Shown: one piece after another, positions 42,917 through 56,629 of the stretch | How positions within the stretch are numbered: position 1 is the first letter of the stretch | How the letters are laid out: the number at the start of each line of letters is the position of its first letter | Assembly: GCA_013791955.1 (NCBI GenBank) | Contig: VMSW01000007.1 | Span: 1 to 64,000, forward strand | Source of the DNA: Propionicimonas sp. | GTDB taxonomy: Bacteria; Actinomycetota; Actinomycetes; Propionibacteriales; Propionibacteriaceae | Reading direction: 5' to 3' | DNA: 64,000 nucleotides | Notes under the pieces: model-generated | Seen by the model: only the letters and a program-made list of their open reading frames with translations | Database searches by the model: none | What the model was told of the DNA's origin: nothing | Translations under genes and position numbers: made by a program

Positions 42917-44020
42917 TCAGGCGGTGGGGTTGAGCAGGTCGTCGAGTTGGGCGGGGTTGAGGTGGTGTTGCTGGGCGTCGGCAGCCAGGCGCAGCTTCGC
43001 GGTGAGCTCGACCAGATCGCCGACCTCACCTAAGAGGGCGGCGACGGCTGCTCGGCCGCTGTGGTGGCCTAGGCGCAGGTTTCGTTGGGCGCCGACCATT
43101 TCAGGTGGGTAGGGCTCGTAGGTGGTGGGGTCATTGGCGATGGCGGCGACGTGGAGGCCGGATTCGGCGGTGAAGATGTCGGTGCCGATGACCGGGGTGT
43201 GGCCCGGGATCGGCCGGTTGATCCATTCGCTGAGCATGGTGGCGGCGCCTTTGCTGGCGCGCAGGTCGTAGTGAGCGCCCTGCTGGACGCTGAGGTAGGC
43301 GGCGACCTGCTCGGTGTGGGAAATGCCGGCCCGCTCGCCGAGGCCCAATAGGGCGACATCAGCCCAGGCTGCGCCAGCTTCGAGGGCAGCGATGGCCCCG
43401 GCGGTGGCCATGCCAAAGTCATTGTGTAGATGGACGCCGACCTCGCCGGCAAAAGTGGTGCGAACCGCCGAGACCAGCTCTGCCAGCAGACCTGGCGAAA
43501 GCACTCCCACGGTGTCGGCGATCCGCACCCGGTCGGCCCCGGCGGCCGAGGCTGCTGCGGTGATGTCGAGGAGGAAGTCGACATCGGTCCGGCTGGCATC
43601 TTCGAGTCCTACCGAGACGTAGCTGATCCCCGCCTCGCGGGCGATGGTCACCAGGCGGCCGATTTCGGCCAGCGCCCAGTTGCGATCACGGCCGAGCCGG
43701 CTGGCCAGGTGGCGATCGGAGATGGGTAACGCGAAGGAGACTACTTCGGGGTCAAGGGCTGCGGCGGCCTGGATGTCATCGGCCCGGGCCCGGCACCAGA
43801 TGGCTCGGCGCACCCCGGGGGCGAAGCGAGCGGCGATGGCCATCAGGTCGGTCAGGGGCTCAGCCCCGTAGGCGAGTTCGGTGACGGCATGGCCGAGTTC
43901 GATTTCCTCCACCCCGATCCGGGCCAAGGCGGCGATCAGGGCCGCCTTCTGCACGGTGGTCAGATAAGGGACGGGCGCCTGGGCGCCTTCCCGCAAGGTC
44001 GTATCGATCAGCCGTCCCAT
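42917..44020 (-). CDS. nifV: homocitrate synthase NifV
   Basis: The 367-residue protein has the DRE-TIM barrel motifs: LIDTTLREGAQAP at the start, VGLEDASRTDVDFLLD, and the metal-binding VHLHNDFGMATAGAIAALEAGA. GLGERAGI and ESGLHVAAI follow. It condenses acetyl-CoA with 2-oxoglutarate to homocitrate, the organic acid of FeMo-cofactor. It is last in the nif operon, nine bases after nifB. A leucine-type 2-isopropylmalonate synthase is excluded by the size and by the nif context. Confidence 0.95.
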   Translation of the reverse strand: MGRLIDTTLREGAQAPVPYLTTVQKAALIAALARIGVEEIELGHAVTELAYGAEPLTDLMAIAARFAPGVRRAIWCRARADDIQAAAALDPEVVSFALPISDRHLASRLGRDRNWALAEIGRLVTIAREAGISYVSVGLEDASRTDVDFLLDITAAASAAGADRVRIADTVGVLSPGLLAELVSAVRTTFAGEVGVHLHNDFGMATAGAIAALEAGAAWADVALLGLGERAGISHTEQVAAYLSVQQGAHYDLRASKGAATMLSEWINRPIPGHTPVIGTDIFTAESGLHVAAIANDPTTYEPYPPEMVGAQRNLRLGHHSGRAAVAALLGEVGDLVELTAKLRLAADAQQHHLNPAQLDDLLNPTA

Positions 44021-44029
44021 GATGGCGCC

Positions 44030-45316
44030 CTATCCGCAGCCGGTGCCGGGGCCGGAGCACGAGGTGGCGCAGTCCCGCGGGGGCAGTGCCCGGCGCGGCT
44101 CGCGGCCAGCGAACACATCGGTGACCGCCTCGGAAATCAGTCCGTCCGACTCGTGCACGCTCAGCCCGGCGCCCTTGAGCACCATGCTGGGGGTCTCGCC
44201 GACCTGATGACAGATGAGGGCTTTGCAGTCGCTCATGATGCCCGCCAGCATCGCCCAGCGACCCGCGCCGCCGCCCGCAGGTGGGGTGCGGCGCTTGTCG
44301 ATCAGGCGCGGCGTGATTCGGCCATCGATGTTGGTGTTCTCATAGATCAGCAGGAAGTCGGCCCCGCCCAGGTGCTGGTTGACCAGGTAACCCTCCTGGC
44401 TACACACCGCGATGTAGGGACGCACCTTCGCCGGCGCTTTTGCGGCCAGCAATCGATCAATGGCCTCGCCGGTGTGCTCGTCGCCGAGAATGCCGACCGC
44501 ATCAGCTCGACAGCGCTGGCAGTGGGTCATCTGCTCGATGTGCGGCTCGGAGACTCGGCGGGCGACGGTGATTTCTTCGGGCGTTGGCGCCCGCAACTCG
44601 CCGAAGGGGGTGCCCTCAACTGGGTAGAGCGGCAGGTTGTTCATCGTGTCGGCACCCAACTCGCCAGCCACCCTGGCCACCTCGCCGATGCCCTCCAGGG
44701 TCACCCCTGGCACCAGGATGGTGTTGATCTTCACCGTCACGCCGCGCTCCTTCAGCCCGGCGATTGAGGCCAGCTGGCGCGAAAGGATCAACTCGCCCGC
44801 CTCGCGACCCCGATACACCTGACGTCCATCGCGCACCCAGCGGTAGATCTGGCCACCAATTTCCGGATCGACGGTGTTGAGCGTGATGGTGACGTGGCTG
44901 ACGCCCAACTCGGCGACGGCATCAAGGTGATTGGCCAACTCCAAGCCGTTGCTGGAAACGCACAGCAGCAGGTCGGGGTGACGCTGCTTGACCAACTCAA
45001 GGCTGGCCAGCGTCGCCTCAGCATTGGCGAACGGGTCACCAGGACCGGCGATCCCGACCACGGCCAGATTCGGCAGATCAGCTCGCACCGCGTCCACGTA
45101 GTTGGCAGCCTGTGCCGGGCTGAGGACGGTGGAGGAGACGCCGGGACGAGACTCCGAGACGCAGTCGAACTTCCGGTTGCAGTAGTTGCACTGCACATTG
45201 CATTTGGGCGCCACCGGCAGGTGGACCCGCGCGGTCCGGGCCCGAGCGGCCTCATCGAAGCAGGGATGCTCACTGCGCGCGATCTTGGTCGGGGTCAAAG
45301 GTGGGTTGAGGCTCAT
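44030..45316 (-). CDS. nifB: FeMo-cofactor biosynthesis protein NifB with NifX-like C-terminal domain
   Basis: ATG 45316 is preferred; GAGGAG eight bases upstream overlaps the nifN stop. The radical-SAM cluster Cys are 39, 43 and 46 (CNVQCNYC), followed by NRKFDCVSESRPGV typical of NifB, and VGIAGPGDPFAN for SAM binding. After about residue 295 a NifX/NifY-like domain follows (VRPYIAVCSQEGYLVNQHLGGAD), ending CSGPGTGCG. NifB makes the 8Fe-9S-C core (NifB-co). No separate nifX gene is present, so the fused domain may be the only one. Confidence 0.97.
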   Translation of the reverse strand: MSLNPPLTPTKIARSEHPCFDEAARARTARVHLPVAPKCNVQCNYCNRKFDCVSESRPGVSSTVLSPAQAANYVDAVRADLPNLAVVGIAGPGDPFANAEATLASLELVKQRHPDLLLCVSSNGLELANHLDAVAELGVSHVTITLNTVDPEIGGQIYRWVRDGRQVYRGREAGELILSRQLASIAGLKERGVTVKINTILVPGVTLEGIGEVARVAGELGADTMNNLPLYPVEGTPFGELRAPTPEEITVARRVSEPHIEQMTHCQRCRADAVGILGDEHTGEAIDRLLAAKAPAKVRPYIAVCSQEGYLVNQHLGGADFLLIYENTNIDGRITPRLIDKRRTPPAGGGAGRWAMLAGIMSDCKALICHQVGETPSMVLKGAGLSVHESDGLISEAVTDVFAGREPRRALPPRDCATSCSGPGTGCG

Positions 45317-45326
45317 AGCCAACTCC

Positions 45327-46751
45327 TCACATGTAGGCGTAACCGACGGCGGATTCGTCCTGGCGGACTTGAATCAAGGTGTTGATGACCCGGTCGAACA
45401 GGTCCTGAGTGCCCCGGTAGCCGAGGTGCCGTAACCGCTGCGCGCCGACCCGGTCGTGAATCGGCAGGCCCACCCGAATCAGTGGGATGCCCAACCGGCG
45501 GGACGTCGCATAACCCTTGGAGTGACCGATCAGCAGGTCGGGCTTGAGCTCGGCCGCGCGGGCTTCGATCTCGTGGAAGTCACCGTCATCGAGCACCTCG
45601 ATGTCAGCGGCCCGAGCTGGGGTGAGTTTGGCGATCTCGGTAGTCAGTTGGCCGGAGCGGCCACCGCTGGCCACCAGCAGGGTCTTGATGCCGATTTCGG
45701 AAAGGAAGGCGGTCACCCCGACCACCAGATCCTCATCGCCGTACACGATCGCGGTGCGGTCGGCGGCGTACTTGTGGCCATCGATGTAGGCGTCCACCAA
45801 GCGGCCGCGTTCGGCGTCCAGCCAGTGGGGCATCGGCTGTCCCGACAACTCGGTGAGTCGGTCGGTGAAGGTATCGACCAGCCGAATCCCGATCGGCAGC
45901 GGCATTCGCAGATGCTCCACCCCGAACTGTTCCTGGAGCACCTCGCCGGCCAGGTCGACCCCAGGGGTGACCATGCCGCCCAAGGTGATTGAGGCCAGCG
46001 CGTGGCCGGCGCCAGCCACTGCGGTGGCGGTGGTGCCGCCACCGGGCAGCTTCTCGTAGCGGGCAACGGTCACCCCGTCCAGCCGTTCGGAGTAGTCGGG
46101 GATCAGCGCATGCGGCAGGCCGTAGCCGGCGACGATCTCGCTGAGGTGGCGCAGGTCGGCGGTGGAGACGATGCCGGGGAAGAGGTTCACCGACTCGGTC
46201 TCCTCGCCGACCTCGGCGAGTTCCTTCACCACTGCGGTCACCGCGGCGTGGTAGCCGTCGGCATGAGTGCCGGCGAAGGAGGGTGTGGGCGCGAAGACGA
46301 GTTCGGGGGTGGCCTGGCCGGTCTCGGCGCGCAACCCCGTTTCGGGATCCTTGATGCGGGTGATCATCCCCGGGACGTCCTCGCCGATGGTCTCGGTCAG
46401 GCAGGTGGACGCCAGCCCGATCATCAGCGGCTTGTAAACCCGGGACACATTGGCCACACCGACGCGCAGGTTTTCCTCGCCGCCGAACACGGTGGCCGCC
46501 TCGCCGACTGAGGAGGAGGCGATGTCCATCGGTTCGGAGAAGTGGCTGATCAGGTAGCGCCGAATGTAGGTGGCACAACCCTGCGAGCCGTGCAGGAACG
46601 GGACGGTGCCCTCGAAGCCCACATAGGCCAGGCAGGCGCCCAGCGGCATGCACATCCGGCAGGCGTTCGTGGTGGAGGACGACTTGGTTTCCGTCGAGCT
46701 TGGCACCTTGGACTGGTCGGCCAGGGCCTTCGGCAGTTCGGTGATGGACAC
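45327..46751 (-). CDS. nifN: nitrogenase cofactor scaffold protein NifN
   Basis: GTG 46751 follows AAGGAGGTG, one base after the nifE stop; longer frames have no support. The 474-residue protein is NifK-like: CRMCMPLGACLAYVGFEGTVPFLHGSQGCATYIRRYL, then STCLTETIGEDVPGMI. With NifE it forms the scaffold on which NifB-co matures to FeMo-cofactor. Its position between nifE and nifB and its lack of the full NifK P-cluster surroundings separate it from NifK. Confidence 0.95.
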   Translation of the reverse strand: MSITELPKALADQSKVPSSTETKSSSTTNACRMCMPLGACLAYVGFEGTVPFLHGSQGCATYIRRYLISHFSEPMDIASSSVGEAATVFGGEENLRVGVANVSRVYKPLMIGLASTCLTETIGEDVPGMITRIKDPETGLRAETGQATPELVFAPTPSFAGTHADGYHAAVTAVVKELAEVGEETESVNLFPGIVSTADLRHLSEIVAGYGLPHALIPDYSERLDGVTVARYEKLPGGGTTATAVAGAGHALASITLGGMVTPGVDLAGEVLQEQFGVEHLRMPLPIGIRLVDTFTDRLTELSGQPMPHWLDAERGRLVDAYIDGHKYAADRTAIVYGDEDLVVGVTAFLSEIGIKTLLVASGGRSGQLTTEIAKLTPARAADIEVLDDGDFHEIEARAAELKPDLLIGHSKGYATSRRLGIPLIRVGLPIHDRVGAQRLRHLGYRGTQDLFDRVINTLIQVRQDESAVGYAYM

Positions 46752-46752
46752 C

Positions 46753-48108
46753 TCACACCTCCTTGATGGCGGGTTGATGACGGGGTGCGAACTGCCACAC
46801 CGGGCTGCAGACCGAGGCGCGCACTTCCCGGGCGAAGTTCGCCATGCCGATGAAGCCCTCCAGGGGCAGTTTGCGCTCATGGTTGTGGTCGCAGAACGCG
46901 ACCCCGAGCTTGTAGGCCAGCGGACGTTCTTTGACGCCGCCGATGAACAGATCGGCCTTGCCCTCGCTGAGGAAGGCCGACAGCTCGGCCGGGTTGGAGT
47001 CGTCCACGATCACGGTGCCGGCATCACACAGATCGGTGAGGTACTCATAGTCCTCCGGTGTGCCGGTCTGGGAGCCGGCCAGCACGGTGGTCATGCCCAG
47101 CAGTCGCAGCGCCTTGACCAGCGAGATCGCCTTGAAGGCGCCGCCGACGTAGATCGCGGCCCGCTTACCTTCCAGGTCGCGACGGCATTCTTCGACCACC
47201 GGCAGGATCTCGGTGATCTCCTCAGCTACCAACGCCCGGGTGCGCTCCAGCATCTCGGGGTCTTTGAAGTGCTCGGCCACTGCATAGAGGGCGCCGGCCA
47301 TATCGTCGATGCCGAAGTAGGAGACCTTCTTGAACGGAATGCCGTACTTGGCCTGCATCTGCATGGCCAGCTTGGTGGTGGAGCCGGAGCATTGCACCAG
47401 GTTCAGCGCCGCCCCGTGGGCCCGCTGAATGTCGGCCACCCGGCCGTCCCCGGTGAGGTTGGCCACCACTTCCACACCCATTCGGCGCAGGTACTCGGTG
47501 ATGATCCAGATTTCGCCAGCCAGGTTGAAATCTCCCAGCAGGTTCACGGTGTGCTTGCCAACTCCGGCGGTATCGCCGGTGCCGATCAGCGTCATCAGCG
47601 CCTCACAGGCTGCGTCATAGCCCTGCTTCTTTGAGCCGGCGAAACCTTCGGACTGCACCGGGATGACCGGGATGCCGTATTTGGCCGAAACCACTCGGCA
47701 GATCGCCGAGACGTCATCACCGATCACCCCGACGATGCAGGTGGCATAGACAAAAGCCGCCGCCGGGTGGTGCCGTTCTATGAGTTCATTCAGGCTGTCT
47801 TCGAGTTGGCGCTCGCCGCCGAACACGACATGTCGTTCGCGCAGATCGGTGGAAAAGCTGAGCCGGTGGAGCTCCGGGCCGCTGGACAGCGCCCCGCGAA
47901 TGTCCCAGGTGTAGACCGCACACCCAATCGGACCGTGCACCAGGTGCACCGCGTCCGCGATCGGGTAGAGGACGACCCGGGAGCCGCAGAACGTGCAAGC
48001 CCGTTGGCTGACTGACCCGGCCACCGACTGCTTCTCGCAGTCGATGCCGGCTTTTCCATCTCCGCTGCGAATGACCTGGCGCGCTCTGGCGGCGAGCACC
48101 TCAGTCAT
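46753..48108 (-). CDS. nifE: nitrogenase cofactor scaffold protein NifE
   Basis: The 451-residue protein is NifD-like: CTFCGSRVVLYPIADAVHLVHGPIGCAVYTWD, CIVGVIGDDVSAICR, and LNLVQCSGSTTKLAMQM with the Cys at the cofactor position. The start is one base after the nifK stop. It lacks the catalytic His/Gln set of NifD, as expected of the scaffold subunit. It works with NifN to complete FeMo-cofactor. Confidence 0.96.
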   Translation of the reverse strand: MTEVLAARARQVIRSGDGKAGIDCEKQSVAGSVSQRACTFCGSRVVLYPIADAVHLVHGPIGCAVYTWDIRGALSSGPELHRLSFSTDLRERHVVFGGERQLEDSLNELIERHHPAAAFVYATCIVGVIGDDVSAICRVVSAKYGIPVIPVQSEGFAGSKKQGYDAACEALMTLIGTGDTAGVGKHTVNLLGDFNLAGEIWIITEYLRRMGVEVVANLTGDGRVADIQRAHGAALNLVQCSGSTTKLAMQMQAKYGIPFKKVSYFGIDDMAGALYAVAEHFKDPEMLERTRALVAEEITEILPVVEECRRDLEGKRAAIYVGGAFKAISLVKALRLLGMTTVLAGSQTGTPEDYEYLTDLCDAGTVIVDDSNPAELSAFLSEGKADLFIGGVKERPLAYKLGVAFCDHNHERKLPLEGFIGMANFAREVRASVCSPVWQFAPRHQPAIKEV

Positions 48109-48109
48109 C

Positions 48110-49498
48110 TCAGAGCACCAACTCGAACTGGTGATCCGGAGCGTCCCGATCGCGCCGATCGAGCAGCGCGTCGGTCATCTTGGTCAGCAGTCGCACCGCA
48201 CCGGCGTAGCCCAGGGTTGGGATCAACGAGTGCCCAACCCGATCCAGGATCGGCCAGCCAACCCGCACGAACGGGATGTCCTGAGCCTGAGCGATGTACT
48301 TGCCGTAGGTGTTGCCCAACAGCAGGTCCACCGGCTCGTTCTTGATCAGCTGATGCAGCGTGAACAGGTCGCCTTCGGACTTGATGTTGGAGCTGGCTGC
48401 CTTCGGCCCGAGGATTCGCTCGGCCTCGCTGGTGAACCGCTTGCCGGGAGTGCCAGTGAGGACGTGGACCGGGATCATGCCCAGGTCCCGGACGTACTCG
48501 GTCAGCGCCAGCACATGATCGGGATCACCGAAGATGGCCACCTTCTTGCCGTGGAAGTGCTGCTGGGTGTCAACCATCAGGTCGACCAGTTGGCCACGCT
48601 CGCGCTCCAGATCAGGCGTGATCACCCCGCCGCGGAACTTCAGGATCTGCATGAACCGGTCAGTAGCCGCGATCCCAATCGGCAGATCCAGAATCTCCCG
48701 AGGCACATAGGCCTTCTTCTCTACCTGGATCGCCGCATCACGAGAGGCCCACCAGCCCAGCGCCATGGTTGCCACGCCCCGGCCAAGGTTCTTCAGTTCG
48801 TCCACGGTGGTGCCACCGTCGGGGTAGAAGATGTGCTTTCCGGTCTGCGGTGCGTCCATCACCCCGGAGGTGTCGGGGAACATCGTCACCTTGAACCCGG
48901 TCGCCTCGGCCAGCCGCCGCAGTTCGCGCATGTCGGACGGATCGACGAACCCCGGCACGATGTTGATCTGGGTGGCGTCAGTGTGGCGGCGCCTGGCTGG
49001 CTTCACCTCCTGGGCGAAGTAGGTGGCCATCGCGGTGCACATGTTCGAGAAACCGACCACGTGCGAGCCCACATAACTTGGAGTGTTGGCGTGGATGACG
49101 TACTTGCCCTCAGGAATGATGTCCTGACGCTTGGCTTCGCCCACGATCTGGGGAATGTCATCACCGATGGTCTCCGACAGGCAGGTGGTGTGCACTGCCA
49201 CCACGTCGGGATCGTAGGTAGTGAAGACAGTCTTGAGGCCCTCCATCAGGTTGGGCTGGCCGCCGAACACCGAGGCACCCTCGGTGAACGAACTGCTGGC
49301 CGCCATCACCGGCTCTTTGAAGTGCCGGGTCAGGTGGCTGCGGTGGTAGGAGCAGCAGCCCTGGGAGCCGTGGCTGTACGGCAGGCACCGGTGGATGCCA
49401 AGAGCGGCATACATCGCGCCGATCGGCTGGCAGGTCTTGGCCGGGTTGATCCGTAGCGCGCTACGTTCGGCGATCTCGGTCGGAGTGTGATTCAGCAT
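48110..49498 (-). CDS. nifK: nitrogenase MoFe protein beta subunit NifK
   Basis: ATG 49498 follows GAGAGGAA, 13 bases after the nifD stop; the longer frame to 49567 overlaps nifD and has no ribosome site. The 462-residue protein has P-cluster Cys at 23 (TCQPIGA), 48 (HGSQGC) and 106 (HTTCLSETIGDD). The N-terminus is short, with Cys23 rather than about 70 in the Azotobacter protein, matching clostridial-type NifK. It pairs with NifD to hold the P-cluster. Confidence 0.98.
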   Translation of the reverse strand: MLNHTPTEIAERSALRINPAKTCQPIGAMYAALGIHRCLPYSHGSQGCCSYHRSHLTRHFKEPVMAASSSFTEGASVFGGQPNLMEGLKTVFTTYDPDVVAVHTTCLSETIGDDIPQIVGEAKRQDIIPEGKYVIHANTPSYVGSHVVGFSNMCTAMATYFAQEVKPARRRHTDATQINIVPGFVDPSDMRELRRLAEATGFKVTMFPDTSGVMDAPQTGKHIFYPDGGTTVDELKNLGRGVATMALGWWASRDAAIQVEKKAYVPREILDLPIGIAATDRFMQILKFRGGVITPDLERERGQLVDLMVDTQQHFHGKKVAIFGDPDHVLALTEYVRDLGMIPVHVLTGTPGKRFTSEAERILGPKAASSNIKSEGDLFTLHQLIKNEPVDLLLGNTYGKYIAQAQDIPFVRVGWPILDRVGHSLIPTLGYAGAVRLLTKMTDALLDRRDRDAPDHQFELVL

Positions 49499-49511
49499 TT
49501 CAGTGTTCCTC

Positions 49512-51221
49512 TCAGGCCGGTTTCTTCGCCGCCCACGGCGGGGTGACCAGGCGCCAAACCTGGGCATTCACCATGCGGTCGATCTCGGTGTAGAAGTTGA
49601 TCGCGCCCTTGAACCCGGCGTACGGGCCGCCGTAGTCGTAGTTGTGCAGCTGCTTGCAGGGGATCCCCATCTTTTCGATGACGTACTTGTCCTTGATGCC
49701 CGAGCAGACCAGGGCCGGCTTGTACGCCTCGATGAGCTGTTCCAGCTCGGCGTGGGAGATGTCGTCAACGACGACTGATCCCTTCGTCATTTCCGGCATC
49801 ATGCCTTCGTAGGTCGCCATCTTCAGCCCACCCGCTTCGAGCTCGGCGATCTCCGCCTCGGTCTTTCGCGGTGCGAAACGCTCCGGATCCGGACCGATGG
49901 TGAGTTCTTCGATGGCTCGGGAGTCGGCGTCGATGGTGATGGAATCCAGCACAACGCTGCCCTCGTAGTCATCGCGGTGAGCGAACTCGTAGCCGGCAGC
50001 CACCACCGGCATGCCCAGGTCGGCAAACAGCGACTGGTAGTGATGGGCTCGTGAACCGCCCACATACAGCATCACCGGACGGCCATTGGTTCGGGCGCGA
50101 ATGGCATTACGCACTGGCTCAACTTCAGCCAGCTCCTGAGCAATGACCACCTCGACCCGAGCGATGAGCTCGGGATCGCCGAAGTAGCGGGCGATCTTGC
50201 GCATCGCCTTGGCCGTGGCCTGAGCGCCGATGAAGTTCACCTTCATCCACGGGATGCCGAACTTGGATTCCATCATCTCGGCCATGTAGTTGATCGAGCG
50301 ATGGCACTGCACCAGGTTCAGGTTGGCATCAGCCGAACGAGCCAGTTCGGAGTACTGGGCGTTGCCGCTGAACGTGGAAACCAACTGGATGCCGCAGCGA
50401 GCCAGGATCCGTTCCATCTCGAAGGCGTCGCCGCCGATGTTGTACTCGCCCAGCAGGTTCACTCGCCACGGGTTCACCTTCAGTTCGGGCGGCAGCTCTT
50501 CGGTGCCGACCACATTGGTGAACAGGCCGTTGTTGGCGATGTGGTGGCCTGCCGACTGGCTGACCCCCTTGTACCCCTCGCAGGAGAAGCCGAAGATGTT
50601 GATCCCAAGCTCGGCTTTCATCTGCCGAGCCACCGCGTGGACGTCGTCCCCGATCAAGCCGACCGGGCAGGTGGAGAACACCGCGATCGCCTTGGGATGG
50701 AACAGGTCGTAGGCCTCCTGGATGGCCTTGGCCAGCTTCTTCTCGCCGCCGAAGATGATCTCGTTCTCGGTCATATCGGTGGTGAAGGCGTAGTTCAGGA
50801 AGTTCTGATCGCCCTCGGGAACATCAGCTTGATTGCGGCGGGTCATCCAGGCGTAGTAGGAGCACCCGACCGGACCATGCACGATGTGCACGATGTCGGT
50901 AATCGGGCCCAGCACCACACCCTTGCAACCGGCGTAGCAGCAGCCACGCTGGGTGATGATGCCGGGCGAGGTACGGCTGTTCGCCTCGATCTTGGGAACC
51001 TCGATCGGGTCGTTCACCTTGATATGCCGCGACCGCTTGCGCAGCAGGCGTGGCGGGTAGTTCTGAACCAGGTTCCGCACCAACTGGTTTGGTTCAGGTG
51101 ACCCCATCGGCATAGCCAGGCCAGGGTCTGGACAGGACAGGTCCAGAGCCCCGACCGCTTCCAGATCGATGGCCGCCAGCGCCTTGACCGGGAGGGCCGG
51201 CATCTCTTCAGGCTTCTTCAT
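49512..51221 (-). CDS. nifD: nitrogenase MoFe protein alpha subunit NifD (with insertion and N-terminal extension)
   Basis: ATG 51221 has AGGAG upstream. P-cluster Cys are 94, 120 and 185; FeMo-cofactor ligands are Cys306 (LVQCHRS) and His526 (LHNYDY). The catalytic neighbours Gln222 and His226 (VSQSAGHH) are kept. Cys306 and His526 are 220 residues apart against 167 in Azotobacter, so about 53 residues are inserted, roughly 420-485, as in clostridial and archaeal enzymes. The first P-cluster Cys is at 94, not 62, because about 35 Pro/Ala-rich residues are added in front. No vnfG/anfG gene follows, so it is the Mo enzyme. Confidence 0.98.
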   Translation of the reverse strand: MKKPEEMPALPVKALAAIDLEAVGALDLSCPDPGLAMPMGSPEPNQLVRNLVQNYPPRLLRKRSRHIKVNDPIEVPKIEANSRTSPGIITQRGCCYAGCKGVVLGPITDIVHIVHGPVGCSYYAWMTRRNQADVPEGDQNFLNYAFTTDMTENEIIFGGEKKLAKAIQEAYDLFHPKAIAVFSTCPVGLIGDDVHAVARQMKAELGINIFGFSCEGYKGVSQSAGHHIANNGLFTNVVGTEELPPELKVNPWRVNLLGEYNIGGDAFEMERILARCGIQLVSTFSGNAQYSELARSADANLNLVQCHRSINYMAEMMESKFGIPWMKVNFIGAQATAKAMRKIARYFGDPELIARVEVVIAQELAEVEPVRNAIRARTNGRPVMLYVGGSRAHHYQSLFADLGMPVVAAGYEFAHRDDYEGSVVLDSITIDADSRAIEELTIGPDPERFAPRKTEAEIAELEAGGLKMATYEGMMPEMTKGSVVVDDISHAELEQLIEAYKPALVCSGIKDKYVIEKMGIPCKQLHNYDYGGPYAGFKGAINFYTEIDRMVNAQVWRLVTPPWAAKKPA

Positions 51222-51246
51222 GTCTGCTCCTCAGCAATGCGTGGGG

Positions 51247-52182
<936 letters not shown>

Positions 52183-52441
52183 GTCGGACTCAGCCTGCCG
52201 ATTTCATCGTCGGAGGCGTCCTCGCCGTGTGTTGGTTGAAATACCACCATGGGGAAGTTACGGATGAGTAAACCGAAAAGCGTTCTGTGTTACAGCTTTT
52301 TAAATCCATTTTGGGGACGTATTCGTTGCCATTTGAGAATGCCGCCGGCGAGCATGTTTCGCGCGCGCGGACGGGCGCGTACGCGGGGGAGTGCACACGC
52401 GAGGGCCGCTTGACTAGCTACTTCGTGCGGCCGGTTCTAGT

Positions 52442-52574
52442 TGAAACAGCCGCAGCTGCGGAGTTGTGAGGCGAAAAGGGAACGCAGGTGCGGGCCGCGT
52501 GGAAAACCTCAGAATTTCAGTTTGTTTCAATCCGATGTCGCGTCTGAAACAGCCCTGATGTTCCGTAGCTGCGG
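52442..52574. promoter_or_regulatory. two composite operator-like motifs upstream of the mod regulator
   Basis: Copy 1 is TGAAACAGCCGCAGCTGCGG (52442-52461), in which CCGCAGCTGCGG is a perfect palindrome. Copy 2 (52545-52574) has TGAAACAGCC and then CCGTAGCTGCGG with ten extra bases between them. An inverted TGTTTCA at 52523-52529 faces the second TGAAACA at 52545-52551. The insertion equals about one helical turn, so protein contacts could be kept on one face. Confidence 0.6.
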
Positions 52575-52590
52575 TCCCTACACTCCTGGC

Positions 52591-52992
52591 ATGACGAAAC
52601 TGCGAATCCGTGATGCAGCCATCTTCCTCGGTGTGAGTGATGACACCGTGCGACGTTGGGTTGATGCGGGCCAGATTCCCCACGAGATCGACGATCACCG
52701 ACGCAAGGTAATCGACGGACGGTCGTTGGCGGAGTTTGCACAGTCGCTGGCCAGCCCCATGCCCGACCCCTCAGTGGTGTCGCGTTCGGCGCGCAATCGT
52801 TTCGTTGGATTGGTCACCAAGGTCACCTCAGACCTGGTGATGTCACAGGTGGAGCTGCAGTGTGGCCCGTTCCGCGTCGTGTCCCTGATGAGTACAGAGG
52901 CCGTCCGCGAGCTGGGCCTGGAACCAGGTTCGGTCGCGGTCGCGGTGGTCAAGGCCACCAACGTGATCGTGGAGACCCCACACCCAACCTGA
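52591..52992 (+). CDS. HTH-TOBE molybdate-responsive regulator candidate
   Basis: ATG 52591 starts a 133-residue protein. The N-terminal MerR/excisionase-type helix-turn-helix is RDAAIFLGVSDDTVRRWVDAGQIPHEI. A TOBE (Mop-type) molybdate-binding domain, about 70-133, follows (ARNRFVGLVTKVTSDLVMSQVEL to AVVKATNVIVE). It is the first gene of the mod operon and faces the nif operon, so it may control both; this is inference. It differs from ModE in having a single TOBE and a MerR-like DNA domain. Confidence 0.88.
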   Translation: MTKLRIRDAAIFLGVSDDTVRRWVDAGQIPHEIDDHRRKVIDGRSLAEFAQSLASPMPDPSVVSRSARNRFVGLVTKVTSDLVMSQVELQCGPFRVVSLMSTEAVRELGLEPGSVAVAVVKATNVIVETPHPT

Positions 52993-53002
52993 GAGGAAGT
53001 AG

Positions 53003-53764
53003 ATGCGCACCAAACTGAGGTCCGCAGTGCTGGCCGTCCTGGTCAGCCTCAGCCTGGCTACCGCTGGCTGCAGCACGGCAGCGACGACCAAGACAGTCAC
53101 CGTCTTCGCCGCAGCGTCGATGAAAGCCACCTTCACCAAGCTGGCCCAGACCTTTGAGGCCAGCCACCCTGGCGTGAAAGTCACCTTCAACTTCGCCAAC
53201 GGCGACACTCTCGCCATGCAGATCACCCAAGGCGCGCCGGCTGACGTGTTCGCCACCGCGAGCGAAGCGCACCTGAAGCCGATCACCGACGCGGGGCTCG
53301 GCGCGGCGCAGGTGAAGATCTATGCAACCAACCAGTTGCAGATCGCCGTGCCGCCTGCGAACCCGGCGAAGATCGCCACCTTTGCCGACCTGGCCGGGGG
53401 CGAAGTGAAGTTCGTGGGTTGTTCGGCGAGCACTGCTTGTGGTGCGGCGACGAAGAAGATCGAAGCTGGTACCGGCGTCACGCTGAAGCCGGTGAGTGAG
53501 GAAGAGACAGTCACGGATGTGCTGGCGAAGGTGGTCGCCGGCGAGGCCGATGCCGGCTTGGTCTTCAGGACTGATGTCAGCTCAGCTGGCGACAAGGTGG
53601 CCGGCATCGAGTTCCCCGAATCGGCCAAGGCCGTCAACCGCAACACCATCGTCGCGCTGAAAGCCGGACCGCAGGCAGCGCTCGGCCAGGAGTTCGTCGA
53701 TCTCGTGGTCAGCGCCGAAGGCCAGCAGGTGTTGGCCGCAGCCGGCTTCGGACCAGGGCAGTAG
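53003..53764 (+). CDS. modA: molybdate ABC transporter substrate-binding lipoprotein ModA
   Basis: ATG 53003 follows AGAGGAAG. The 253-residue protein has a lipoprotein signal with lipobox LATAGC. The body has VFAAASMKATFTKLAQTFEASHPGVKV, NFANGDTLAMQI, GAPADVFATAS, and an ETVTDVLAKVVAGEADAGLVFRTDV segment, all typical of ModA. It binds molybdate outside the membrane and hands it to ModB. Cys near 135 and 140 (VGCSASTAC) are unusual. Confidence 0.95.
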   Translation: MRTKLRSAVLAVLVSLSLATAGCSTAATTKTVTVFAAASMKATFTKLAQTFEASHPGVKVTFNFANGDTLAMQITQGAPADVFATASEAHLKPITDAGLGAAQVKIYATNQLQIAVPPANPAKIATFADLAGGEVKFVGCSASTACGAATKKIEAGTGVTLKPVSEEETVTDVLAKVVAGEADAGLVFRTDVSSAGDKVAGIEFPESAKAVNRNTIVALKAGPQAALGQEFVDLVVSAEGQQVLAAAGFGPGQ

Positions 53765-53827
53765 CCGCCAGGCGGGGGCGACCGGGCGGCACCCCGGTCG
53801 TCCCTGATCTCTACTGAAAGGGACGCG

Positions 53828-54682
53828 ATGACTTCGCTGACCGCACGGAGCGCGCAGGTCACTTTGGGCCGGGCGCCAGCCGGCGTCCGAGTGCCCCGGG
53901 TCTACTCCGGCCTGCCACGTTGGTTGGTGCTGCCGGCGGCGGCTGGGGCGGCTCTGGTGCTGTTCCCGCTAGTAGCCATGGGTGCGCGGGTCGATTGGGC
54001 CAAGTTCGGCCAGCTGATCGCCAGTGAAGGCTCCCTGGCTGCGTTGGCTTTGAGCTTGCAGACCTCGGCGACGACCACCGTGGTCTGCCTGGTTCTCGGG
54101 GTGCCGATGGCGCTGGTGCTGGCCAGGACTCAGTTCCGCGGTCAGCAACTGTTGCGTTCGCTGGTGCTCCTGCCGTTGGTGCTCCCACCGGTGGTGGGTG
54201 GCATCGCCCTGCTCTACACCTTCGGCCGCCAAGGACTGCTCGGCTCCGGCCTTGAGCTACTCGGCATTCAGGTGGCCTTCTCTACGGTTGCGGTGGTGTT
54301 GGCCCAGACCTTCGTCGCTCTGCCCTTCCTGGTGCTCTCCCTTGAGGGCACGCTGCGCACCTTCGGTCAGCGCTACGAGCTGGTGGCCGCCACCCTCGGG
54401 GCGGGGCCATCGGTGGTGTTGGCCAAGGTCACCCTGCCGCTGGTGTTGCCGGGCTTGGCCTCGGCTGCGGTGTTGTCCTTCGCCCGGGCCTTGGGGGAGT
54501 TTGGCGCCACGATCACTTTCGCTGGCAGCCTGCAGGGGGTCACCCGCACCCTGCCGCTGGAGATCTTCCTGCAGCGAGTTGATGATCCCGACGCTGCCAT
54601 CGCGCTTTCGCTGGTGCTGGTGGTGGTGGCCGTGGTGGTCACTGCGGCGACGTCCCGGATTTCGAACTGGGCGATCAGATGA
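53828..54682 (+). CDS. modB: molybdate ABC transporter permease ModB
   Basis: ATG 53828 follows AAAGGGA. The 284-residue protein has six membrane segments and the EAA loop [27 protein letters not shown] that contacts Mod[19 protein letters not shown] is a marker for ModB. The 63-bp gap after modA contains a short GACCGGG/CCCGGTC hairpin that may adjust relative expression. The modC start overlaps its stop. Confidence 0.95.
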
Positions 54683-55749
54683 GCCTCGCCTTTACCGCCG
54701 AACTCGCCGAGCGGGGCTTCGAGGCCCAGATAGGGGTACGGCCAGGGGAGCGGGTCGCGGTGCTGGGGCACAACGGCTCAGGCAAGTCGACCCTGCTCAA
54801 CCTGCTGGCTGGCACGCTGCGTCCGGATTCTGGGAAGGCGGTCTTGAGCGGTCGCACCCTGTTTCATCTTGGTTCGAGGACCAACCGCTGGCTGCCGCCG
54901 CATGCGCGGGGCATCTCCCTGCTGGCCCAGGACGCGTTGCTGTTTCCGCACCTGAGCGTGATCGACAATGTGGCCTTCGGCCCGCGAGCCACGGGAGCAT
55001 CGAAGGCCGAGGCGCATCGCTGCGCCGAGGATTGGTTGGCTGAGGTCGGGGTTGCCGATCTGGCTGGACGGCGTCCCAGCCAACTCTCTGGCGGTCAGGC
55101 GCAGCGGGTGGCCATCGCCCGGGCGCTGGCGGCCGACCCGAAGTTGCTGTTGCTGGACGAGCCGATGGCCGCTCTCGATGTGGCGGTGGCCCCGCTGTTG
55201 CGCCGGGTATTGCGCCGGGTGCTGGACGGTCGGGCGACCATGATGGTTACCCACGATCTGTTGGACGCGATGCTGCTCTCAGATCGGATCATCGTGATGG
55301 AGCAGGGGCGGGTGGCCGAATCCGGACCAACTGAAGAGGTGCTGCGGCACCCGCGCACCCGCTTCACCGCCCGGATCGCCGGTTTGAATCTGATCCGCGG
55401 CCACTACCGCGAAGGGGCGGTGCACGACGACACCGGCCTGTCGGTTGCCGGCGCGGTGAAGGATGGCGAATCGCTGGCCGCTGGTGCCCTGGCGGCGGCG
55501 GTCTTCGCGCCGTCAGGGGTGTCGATCTTCCTCGAACCGCCAGCCGGTAGTCCGCGCAACAACCTGTCGGTGCGGGTGGCCGAGTTGGAGCCGCTGGGCG
55601 ATCTGGTGCGGGTGCGCAGCGATGACCATCACGGACACATCCTGGCCGCGGACGTGACCGCGCGGTCGGTGGCCGCACTCGATCTGTATCCCGGCCGCGA
55701 GGTGACCTATTCGATCAAGGCCGCAGCCGTGACCCTCTTCCCGCTATGA
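54679..55749 (+). CDS. modC: molybdate ABC transporter ATP-binding protein ModC
   Basis: ATG 54679 overlaps the modB stop by four bases. The 356-residue protein has Walker [10 protein letters not shown] (about 34-42), signature [15 protein letters not shown], Walker [13 protein letters not shown] and switch His in MVTHDL. The C-terminal part (from about 285) is a TOBE domain with [19 protein letters not shown] that binds molybdate and may inhibit transport. It energises uptake for nitrogenase and other Mo enzymes. Confidence 0.95.
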
Positions 55750-55783
55750 AGCGGGGTCAACCACGCCGTCCAAGGAGGCAGTA

Positions 55784-56629
55784 GTGATTCCGCCCAGTGT
55801 CGAACTCATCGACCGGCTGCTGCGCGAGGATGTGCCCTACTTCGACCTCACTACCACCTTGCTCGGGCTGCCTGAAGTGCCCGCCCGAATGACCTTCCGG
55901 GCGCGGACGCCCGTGGTGGCGGCAGCGACCTCGCTGGCATCGGGACTGTGTGAGCGGGTTGGCTGCCGGATTGAGGCCGCCGCACCGGATGGACGGCTGG
56001 TGTCAGCAGATGAAGAGCTGCTGGCGGTCGTTGGTACCCCGGCCCAACTGCATCTGGCGTGGAAGGTGACCGCGAACGTCCTGGAATCGGCGGGTGGGAT
56101 CGCCACCCGCACCCACCAATTGGTGAGTGCCGCCCGGGCGGTAAGCGATTCGGTTGAGGTCTATGCGACTCGAAAGGTGATCCCCGGCACCAAGGAACTG
56201 GCCTTGGCCGCGGTATTGGCTGGCGGCGGCCTGCCGCACCGCCTGGGGCTGGCAGAAACGGTGCTGGTCTTCGCCCAGCACACTGCCTTTCTCGGAGGGG
56301 TTGCCGGGCTGGTTGAGCGGCTGCCGAAACTGGTCGAGCGGGCCTGCGAGAAGGTGGTGCTGGTTGAGGTGGAGCGCCTCGACGACGCGCTCGCCGTGGC
56401 TGCCGCCGGTGCCGGTGGGGTCCAGTTCGACAAGGTGCCGCCGGCCCAGTTGGCCGACATGGTGGCGGCGCTGCGGGCGGCCGCGCCTGCGGTGCGGGTG
56501 ATTGCCGCTGGTGGGATCAACGCCACCAATGCCGCTGAATACGCGGCCACCGGGGTGTCCGGCTTAGCCACGTCCTGGATGTACGGCGGCGCCCCGGCTG
56601 ACATCGCCGTGACTATCGAGCCGAGCTAG
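55784..56629 (+). CDS. modD: ModD (NadC-like phosphoribosyltransferase fold)
   Basis: GTG 55784 follows AAGGAGG. The 281-residue protein is a quinolinate phosphoribosyltransferase homologue: DLTTTLLG, NVLESAGGIATRT, YATRKVIPGTKELALAAVLAGGGLPHRLGL, and VRVIAAGGINATNAAEYAATGVSGLATS. In NadC the motif is ATRKTTPGLR; here KVIPG marks the ModD subgroup, known from mod and nif loci. Its reaction is not established. It is last in the mod operon, 35 bp after modC. Confidence 0.9.
   Translation: MIPPSVELIDRLLREDVPYFDLTTTLLGLPEVPARMTFRARTPVVAAATSLASGLCERVGCRIEAAAPDGRLVSADEELLAVVGTPAQLHLAWKVTANVLESAGGIATRTHQLVSAARAVSDSVEVYATRKVIPGTKELALAAVLAGGGLPHRLGLAETVLVFAQHTAFLGGVAGLVERLPKLVERACEKVVLVEVERLDDALAVAAAGAGGVQFDKVPPAQLADMVAALRAAAPAVRVIAAGGINATNAAEYAATGVSGLATSWMYGGAPADIAVTIEPS

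Follow-up and report, generated by a model that had tools for sequence, protein, structure and literature searches.

An anaerobe-type molybdenum nitrogenase operon in Propionicimonas with predicted GlnR control beside a predicted molybdate switch, and Fe-only nitrogenase genes in relatives

The window analysed here, 64,000 nucleotides of contig VMSW01000007.1 from Propionicimonas sp. (assembly GCA_013791955.1), carries seven nitrogen fixation genes in the order nifH-D-K-E-N-B-V on the minus strand, running from 52071 to 42917. Divergent from this operon, on the plus strand from 52591, is a second operon consisting of the gene for a small regulator, termed HTH-Mop, and modABCD. A GlnR-type element lies upstream of nifH, and Mop boxes CCGCANNTGCGG are located between nifH and HTH-Mop. 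The window's own genome is labelled G000; other G numbers are compared genomes and L numbers are loci. The features are given below with bit scores and NCBIfam cut-offs.

42917..44020, minus strand: nifV-like, probable homocitrate synthase; best model TIGR02660, 295.9 against 462.9, below
44030..45322, minus strand: nifB, radical-SAM cofactor maturase; TIGR01290, 376.4 against 343.65, passes
45327..46751, minus strand: nifN, cofactor scaffold, GTG start chosen, open frame from 46880; TIGR01285, 291.5 against 326.8, below
46753..48108, minus strand: nifE, cofactor scaffold; TIGR01283, 606.2 against 505.1, passes
48110..49498, minus strand: nifK, MoFe protein beta chain; TIGR01286, 445.6 against 427.3, passes
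49512..51221, minus strand: nifD, MoFe protein alpha chain, 569 aa; TIGR01282, 659.2 against 653.55, passes
51247..52071, minus strand: nifH, Fe protein, 274 aa; TIGR01287, 457.6 against 394.35, passes
52257..52295, minus strand: predicted GlnR-type operator CTGTAACA-N25-CGTAAC, upstream of nifH
52450..52493, no strand assigned: paired Mop boxes CCGCAGCTGCGG and ACGCAGGTGCGG, 32 bases apart
52563..52574, no strand assigned: third Mop box CCGTAGCTGCGG, adjoining the HTH-Mop start
52591..52992, plus strand: HTH-Mop regulator, 133 aa, ATG at 52591; HTH_17/MerR and one TOBE domain
53003..53764, plus strand: modA; TIGR01256, 113.1 against 62.5, passes
53828..54682, plus strand: modB; TIGR02141, 215.1 against 182.6, passes
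54679..55749, plus strand: modC, named by context; TIGR02142, 200.4 against 285.05, below
55784..56629, plus strand: modD; TIGR01334, 216.4 against 178.85, passes

The seven nif frames lie where the initial annotation had placed them, and its gaps of 1 to 25 bases are confirmed (H-D 25, D-K 13, K-E 1, E-N 1, N-B 4, B-V 9); no internal stops were observed in the nif and mod frames. The D-K gap assumes the NifK start at 49498, which was set by alignment (query residue 24 corresponds to residue 1 of 1mio_B) within a frame open from 49567, and the E-N gap assumes the chosen GTG start of NifN at 46751. Five of the seven Nif proteins, NifH, NifD, NifK, NifE and NifB, pass their cut-offs, and the nifHDKENB set is present with five genes over cut-off and NifN recognised below it; a NifEN fusion model gives NifN 297.7 bits against a cut-off of 1229. 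The nearest solved relatives of NifD and NifK are the MoFe chains of 4wes/1mio, at 598.8 and 576.8 bits. Residues 49-564 of NifD align with the solved alpha chain, and its CHRSINY, LHNYDY, GPVGC and STCPVG regions match that chain with Cys and His retained; we take these regions to provide the ligands of the FeMo-cofactor and P-cluster. The radical-SAM part of NifB aligns with 6y1x at 246.5 bits and with NifB structures at 221 bits. Judged by its sequence, the locus is a chromosomal anaerobe-type Mo nitrogenase operon, nifHDKENBV, for which N2 reduction is predicted, and its gene content supports the earlier proposal of a minimal Mo nitrogenase set plus molybdate uptake in a member of the Propionibacteriales.

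The divergent HTH-TOBE-modABCD operon of the initial annotation was likewise recovered. HTH-Mop matches the Mop domains of solved molybdenum-binding proteins. ModE proteins consist of a ModE-type winged helix plus two Mop domains, and the identification of HTH-Mop as ModE was rejected on its different make-up. We also note that the protein ending the mod operon (modD) is nicotinate-nucleotide diphosphorylase-like.

The host genome, a member of the Propionibacteriaceae, comprises 3.10 Mb in 11 contigs. The nif operon has a dnaK-grpE-dnaJ group on one side (31.6-35.2 kb) and clpB on the other (58.0-60.6 kb). The genes flanking nif recur in G129, G143, G297 and G350, four further members of the genus. 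Among the neighbouring genes that were read, some have no family match. nifH is divergent to HTH-Mop-modA also in G129 (HGW-Actinobacteria-2), G143 (UBA7704) and G391 (UBA8946), all members of the window's genus, in Propionibacterium cyclohexanicum DSM 16859 (G077) of the same family, and in G383, G297, G350 and G356. In Actinotalea sp. M2MS4P-6, mod and nif run in the same direction, and three nif-less genomes of the window's genus (G215, G186, G074) have HTH-Mop-mod without the shared flanks in the stretches read. Three Rfam matches at 40-62 kb were rejected as an RNA switch, all being below gathering scores and from unrelated families.

An alignment of nifH promoters reveals a conserved element, CTGTAACA...CGTAAC, starting about 205-225 bases upstream of nifH. 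The whole window genome contains three such sites, one upstream of nifH and one upstream of each of its two amtB genes, each of which is followed by a PII gene. Across 41 genomes, 26 sites were found in 19, against 1 site for the reversed-pattern control. The window's genus accounts for 23 (16 before amtB, 6 before nifH and 1 at a contig end), and three identical sites in another family had no match in the reference set. Within the genus, the element precedes nifH in every one of the seven genomes that carry nif and have a readable promoter; outside the genus it precedes nifH in G356 only, six of seven promoters being without it. The window genome also encodes an OmpR-type GlnR homologue with a degenerate receiver (G000:C2:299591), which scores 237.7 bits to 8hih and 74.3 bits to 4o1h, an entry named GlnR; 8hih and 8hig are presumably GlnR as well, and the nifH/amtB element was assigned with what we take to be the GlnR consensus.

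An encoded OmpR-type GlnR together with a promoter element common to nifH and amtB is what membership of an actinobacterial GlnR regulon would look like. This suggests that the nifH promoter, with its putative element, is part of a predicted GlnR nitrogen regulon, and therefore nif and ammonium uptake would switch together. The initial annotation had placed regulation outside the locus. That holds in so far as GlnR is encoded elsewhere in the genome, but control can partly be read from the nifH promoter itself. Neither a sigma-54 -24/-12 pattern nor a sigma-70 pattern was found upstream of nifH; the genome was not searched for NifA or sigma-54. To our knowledge, sigma-54 is absent in actinobacteria. 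A single TGT-N10-ACA match at -480 upstream of nifH was taken as chance, and G297 has a second GlnR-like site, GTTAC-N6-GTAAC, between nifN and nifB (L120).

Paired CGCANNTGCGG boxes, 31 or 32 bases apart, were observed in 12 of 198 genomes of the family (16 rows, 14 distinct sites), and the reversed-pattern control gave no site in the 198. Twelve of the 14 sites fall at the 5' end of HTH-Mop genes with mod genes downstream, and nine of these twelve belong to eight genomes of other genera, none of which matches the AnfD model. The remaining two sites are both in G172, one before anfH and one before a methyltransferase gene. With looser scoring (9 of 10 positions), a box is present in 10 of 14 HTH-Mop promoters, where about 0.06 per 350 bases would be expected from 26 matches in 164,003 positions; 14 of 15 HTH-Mop targets were scored, L202 not being included. 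Taken singly, the 13-base Mop boxes are weak evidence, as counts for TCCGCANNTGCGG and its reversed control show (6 and 8 in G000, 12 and 1 in G383, 4 and 2 in G172), and weight was placed on the pairs. A lone box before efeU in G383 may be chance. The distribution of the pairs suggests that HTH-Mop is a one-component molybdate sensor, predicted to bind paired CCGCANNTGCGG boxes and to control its own operon.

The same boxes recur at genes for an Fe-only nitrogenase. AnfD is over cut-off (1022 to 1060 bits against 873.8) in three of the 198 family genomes, G172 (L115), G297 (L118) and G383 (L119), all of which also carry nif genes. An Fe protein lies beside AnfD in all three; it is over the NifH cut-off in G172 and G383 and is cut by the contig end in G297. 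AnfG is over cut-off in G172 and G383, with a 64% homologue in G297, and AnfK was model-scored on a partial frame of G383 and identified by homology elsewhere. G172 further encodes an AnfO-like protein (121.1 bits, cut-off 129.15). Both readable anf promoters carry a perfect box some 0.5 kb ahead of anfH with partial boxes on either side in steps of 31-32 bases; the scores out of 10 are 9, 10 and 8 in G172 and 8, 10 and 8 in G383. Among 163,926 background positions, where 207 partial matches of at least 8 were counted, a triple of this kind is not seen once. The boxes before anfH would let molybdate hold the Fe-only nitrogenase off in these relatives, a role predicted from their placement. We also note a nitrogenase-like fused NifH-NifD-like frame in G306 (L096) and NifD-like frames at L117 of G172.

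In the order, 13 of 391 genomes have a match to the nifD model at E 0.001 or better, a count that takes in nitrogenase-like proteins and fragments, and 14 of the 198 family genomes match the AnfD model. nif genes are present in 12 of the 198, in five genera, and in 7 of 30 genomes of the window's genus; the count of 12 sets aside the G306 fusion protein and a G408 fragment and includes the truncated G356. In G356 (L127) and G408 (L212), nifD is truncated near the C-terminus and opens into a frame that bears repeats and resembles a membrane protein; nothing nearby matches nifK to nifB, and the downstream open reading frames have the same sizes in both. In G297 (L120), nifD is spread over several overlapping frames.

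The trees of NifH, NifD and NifK that had been proposed as a check were built as one combined NifHDK tree of 43 rows, in which the nif rows of Actinomycetota, together with those of the window's family, are united at 100/100 in a single clade that excludes the Rhizobium row. Of 96 loci, 65 were kept at first; coverage was then relaxed to 0.6, and rows, mostly near-duplicates, were removed by hand. The tree leaves out the nif genes of G172 (L116), G297 (L120) and G356 (L127) and uses a Rhizobium row instead of Frankia. NifD is 39% identical to the Rhizobium row and 57-66% identical to the remaining non-actinobacterial nif rows, and the enzyme groups apart from the Rhizobium type, as expected of the anaerobe type (Cluster II of Koirala and Brozel). 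Where the actinobacterial clade joins Verrucomicrobiota, Acidobacteriota and a large mixed group, the tree has an open fork. A contig labelled Candidatus Kuenenia (L012) has nif genes that group at 100/100 with Holophagaceae and is possibly misbinned. In the 18 actinobacterial nif rows, some of which represent one genome twice, the nifH-nifD gap is without exception short (13-134 bases), and it is at least 671 bases in 62 of 69 non-actinobacterial rows having both genes. In one record with a large gap, the only one whose content was read, two P-II genes are annotated there. A gap of nifI size, common but not universal in anaerobe-type nitrogenases, is not found here, and from the gap size we infer that NifI is absent between nifH and nifD.

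The locus had been described as nearly self-contained except for Fe-S assembly and an electron donor. Both do lie outside it, and they can now be placed elsewhere in the genome, which encodes SufB and a pyruvate:ferredoxin oxidoreductase (PFOR; 1673.5 bits). The nif operon of G172 includes a PFOR gene, placed between nifB and nifV, in keeping with PFOR as the supplier of electrons.

Taken together, these observations favour an anaerobe-type Mo nitrogenase operon under GlnR, with HTH-Mop as molybdate sensor, and we give this reading as a whole a probability of about 0.75. NifHDK would reduce N2 with electrons from pyruvate via PFOR, NifB, NifE, NifN and NifV would build the FeMo cofactor, and ModABC would import molybdate. 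GlnR would switch nif together with ammonium uptake, NifA and sigma-54 not being needed. HTH-Mop would sense molybdate, bind the paired boxes and control its own mod operon. In relatives with an Fe-only nitrogenase, the same boxes before anfH would let molybdate hold that enzyme off. A wider claim, held with less assurance and only somewhat better than even, is that Propionibacteriaceae possess a two-input circuit for one or two nitrogenases, in which OmpR-type GlnR couples nif to amtB, HTH-Mop with its phased boxes 31-32 bases apart controls molybdate uptake and switches an Fe-only nitrogenase, perhaps the first known in Actinomycetota, and AnfA, like NifA and sigma-54, would not be required (the genome search covered none of these), NifI presumably being missing between nifH and nifD.

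Several observations weigh against this reading. Of the 12 nifH promoters tested, six showed no GlnR-type element, namely those of P. cyclohexanicum, G137, G172, Actinotalea and two Actinomycetota bins. At 9 of 10 positions, no box is found in four of the 14 HTH-Mop promoters (G077, G137, G172 and Actinotalea), and the anf boxes of G172 are therefore unmatched at its own HTH-Mop gene. The other G172 pair (L135, G172:C1:2250447-2250489) precedes a methyltransferase with no evident Mo link; it stands immediately before a short open reading frame and the S-adenosylmethionine (SAM) methyltransferase gene. In the anf promoter of G383, the two outer boxes match at 8 of 10 positions only. G137 has an HTH-Mop gene divergent to nifH, but the stretch that follows it showed no mod genes. 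The AnfD model, run on the 198 family genomes, found no Anf in the window genome itself. NifN and NifV are below their cut-offs. RnfC over cut-off was not found in 21 genomes searched, which gave sub-cut-off matches only. Fer4_ETF_QO, the FixC/FixX-type domain, was not found either, so that PFOR is left to carry the electron path.

Some of these points bear on alternatives to the favoured reading. That both DNA elements are bound by regulators other than GlnR and HTH-Mop would account for G172 and P. cyclohexanicum, which lack the GlnR-type element before nifH as well as Mop boxes before HTH-Mop, and the elements were assigned by position plus a presumed GlnR consensus. We regard this as unlikely, since within the genus the GlnR-type element occurs, as far as readable, only before amtB and nifH, and the paired boxes lie predominantly at HTH-Mop itself (12 of 14), nine of them in genomes without nif. 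Equally doubtful is the proposal that the nif genes are present but unused for net N2 fixation, being rarely expressed, without an electron path or in the course of loss. The two sub-cut-off proteins, the missing Rnf or Fix-type evidence, the patchy occurrence in the genus (7 of 30 genomes, with fragments in G408 and perhaps G352) and the broken or truncated nifD of G297, G356 and G408 speak for it; the intact frames of the window, the conservation of the operon with its divergent regulator across genera and the presence of PFOR and Suf speak against it. An assembly chimera, which the initial annotation had named as grounds for refutation, or contamination is highly improbable. Some binned relatives are contaminated (G356 6%, G408 9%), but the window sits on a 1.56-Mb contig of a genome 99.24% complete with 0.14% contamination, the same flanks accompany nif in the four relatives, and third-position GC of the nif genes (0.81-0.90) is near that of their window neighbours (0.68-0.85).

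Diazotrophy in Actinomycetota is usually told through Frankia. If the favoured reading is true, a second actinobacterial diazotroph line would exist with an anaerobe-type enzyme and a GlnR-wired promoter, some members adding an Fe-only nitrogenase with its own molybdate switch. The circuit would be short and testable and would differ from the one built on NifA and sigma-54, and a named culture-collection strain, P. cyclohexanicum DSM 16859, carries the Mo operon, though without the searched GlnR-type element before nifH. The enzyme is ordinary in kind, and what is new here is the predicted control of nif together with the Fe-only nitrogenase predicted in relatives. Among the literature matches listed, which leave most subscription papers outside, we found neither OmpR-type GlnR control of nif nor an HTH-Mop regulon of this kind, and no report of Anf in Propionibacteriaceae, although a prior one may exist; the search returned no papers on Actinotalea nif.

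The MoFe protein resembles the Clostridium type (1mio and 4wes, whose source we take to be Clostridium) in an extra NifD segment and a short NifK start, and differs in host and predicted regulation. The earlier remark that diazotrophy is little described in this group needs qualification, given nif in five genera of the family here and the published nifHDKENB genes of one Propionibacterium and two unclassified actinobacteria (Koirala and Brozel 2021, PMC8399215). That Propionibacterium has the same six nif genes, and the authors of that study place it with Verrucomicrobium in Cluster IIC, apart from Frankia, whereas the present tree leaves the actinobacterial clade and Verrucomicrobiota at an open fork. 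The mod operon, promoter, regulator and alternative nitrogenase described here for this group are not found in the accessible part of that paper. Paenibacillus likewise has a compact Gram-positive nif operon under a general nitrogen regulator, GlnR (PMC6191146). However, the Paenibacillus GlnR belongs to the MerR family and binds TGTNAN7TNACA, and the window genome encodes the OmpR type; according to the same source, Streptomyces GlnR is OmpR-like and unrelated to that of Paenibacillus. For molybdate control, the closest likeness is with MopA/MopB of Rhodobacter capsulatus, molybdate-responsive regulators encoded with modABC which, when molybdate is present, repress their own modABC operon and, via anfA, the Fe-nitrogenase (PMC6925177). 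There, ModE-like proteins act on anfA, and NifA and AnfA are RpoN-dependent; here, in contrast, the candidate regulator is a small MerR/excisionase-type HTH protein with one Mop domain, and the boxes stand before anfH itself.

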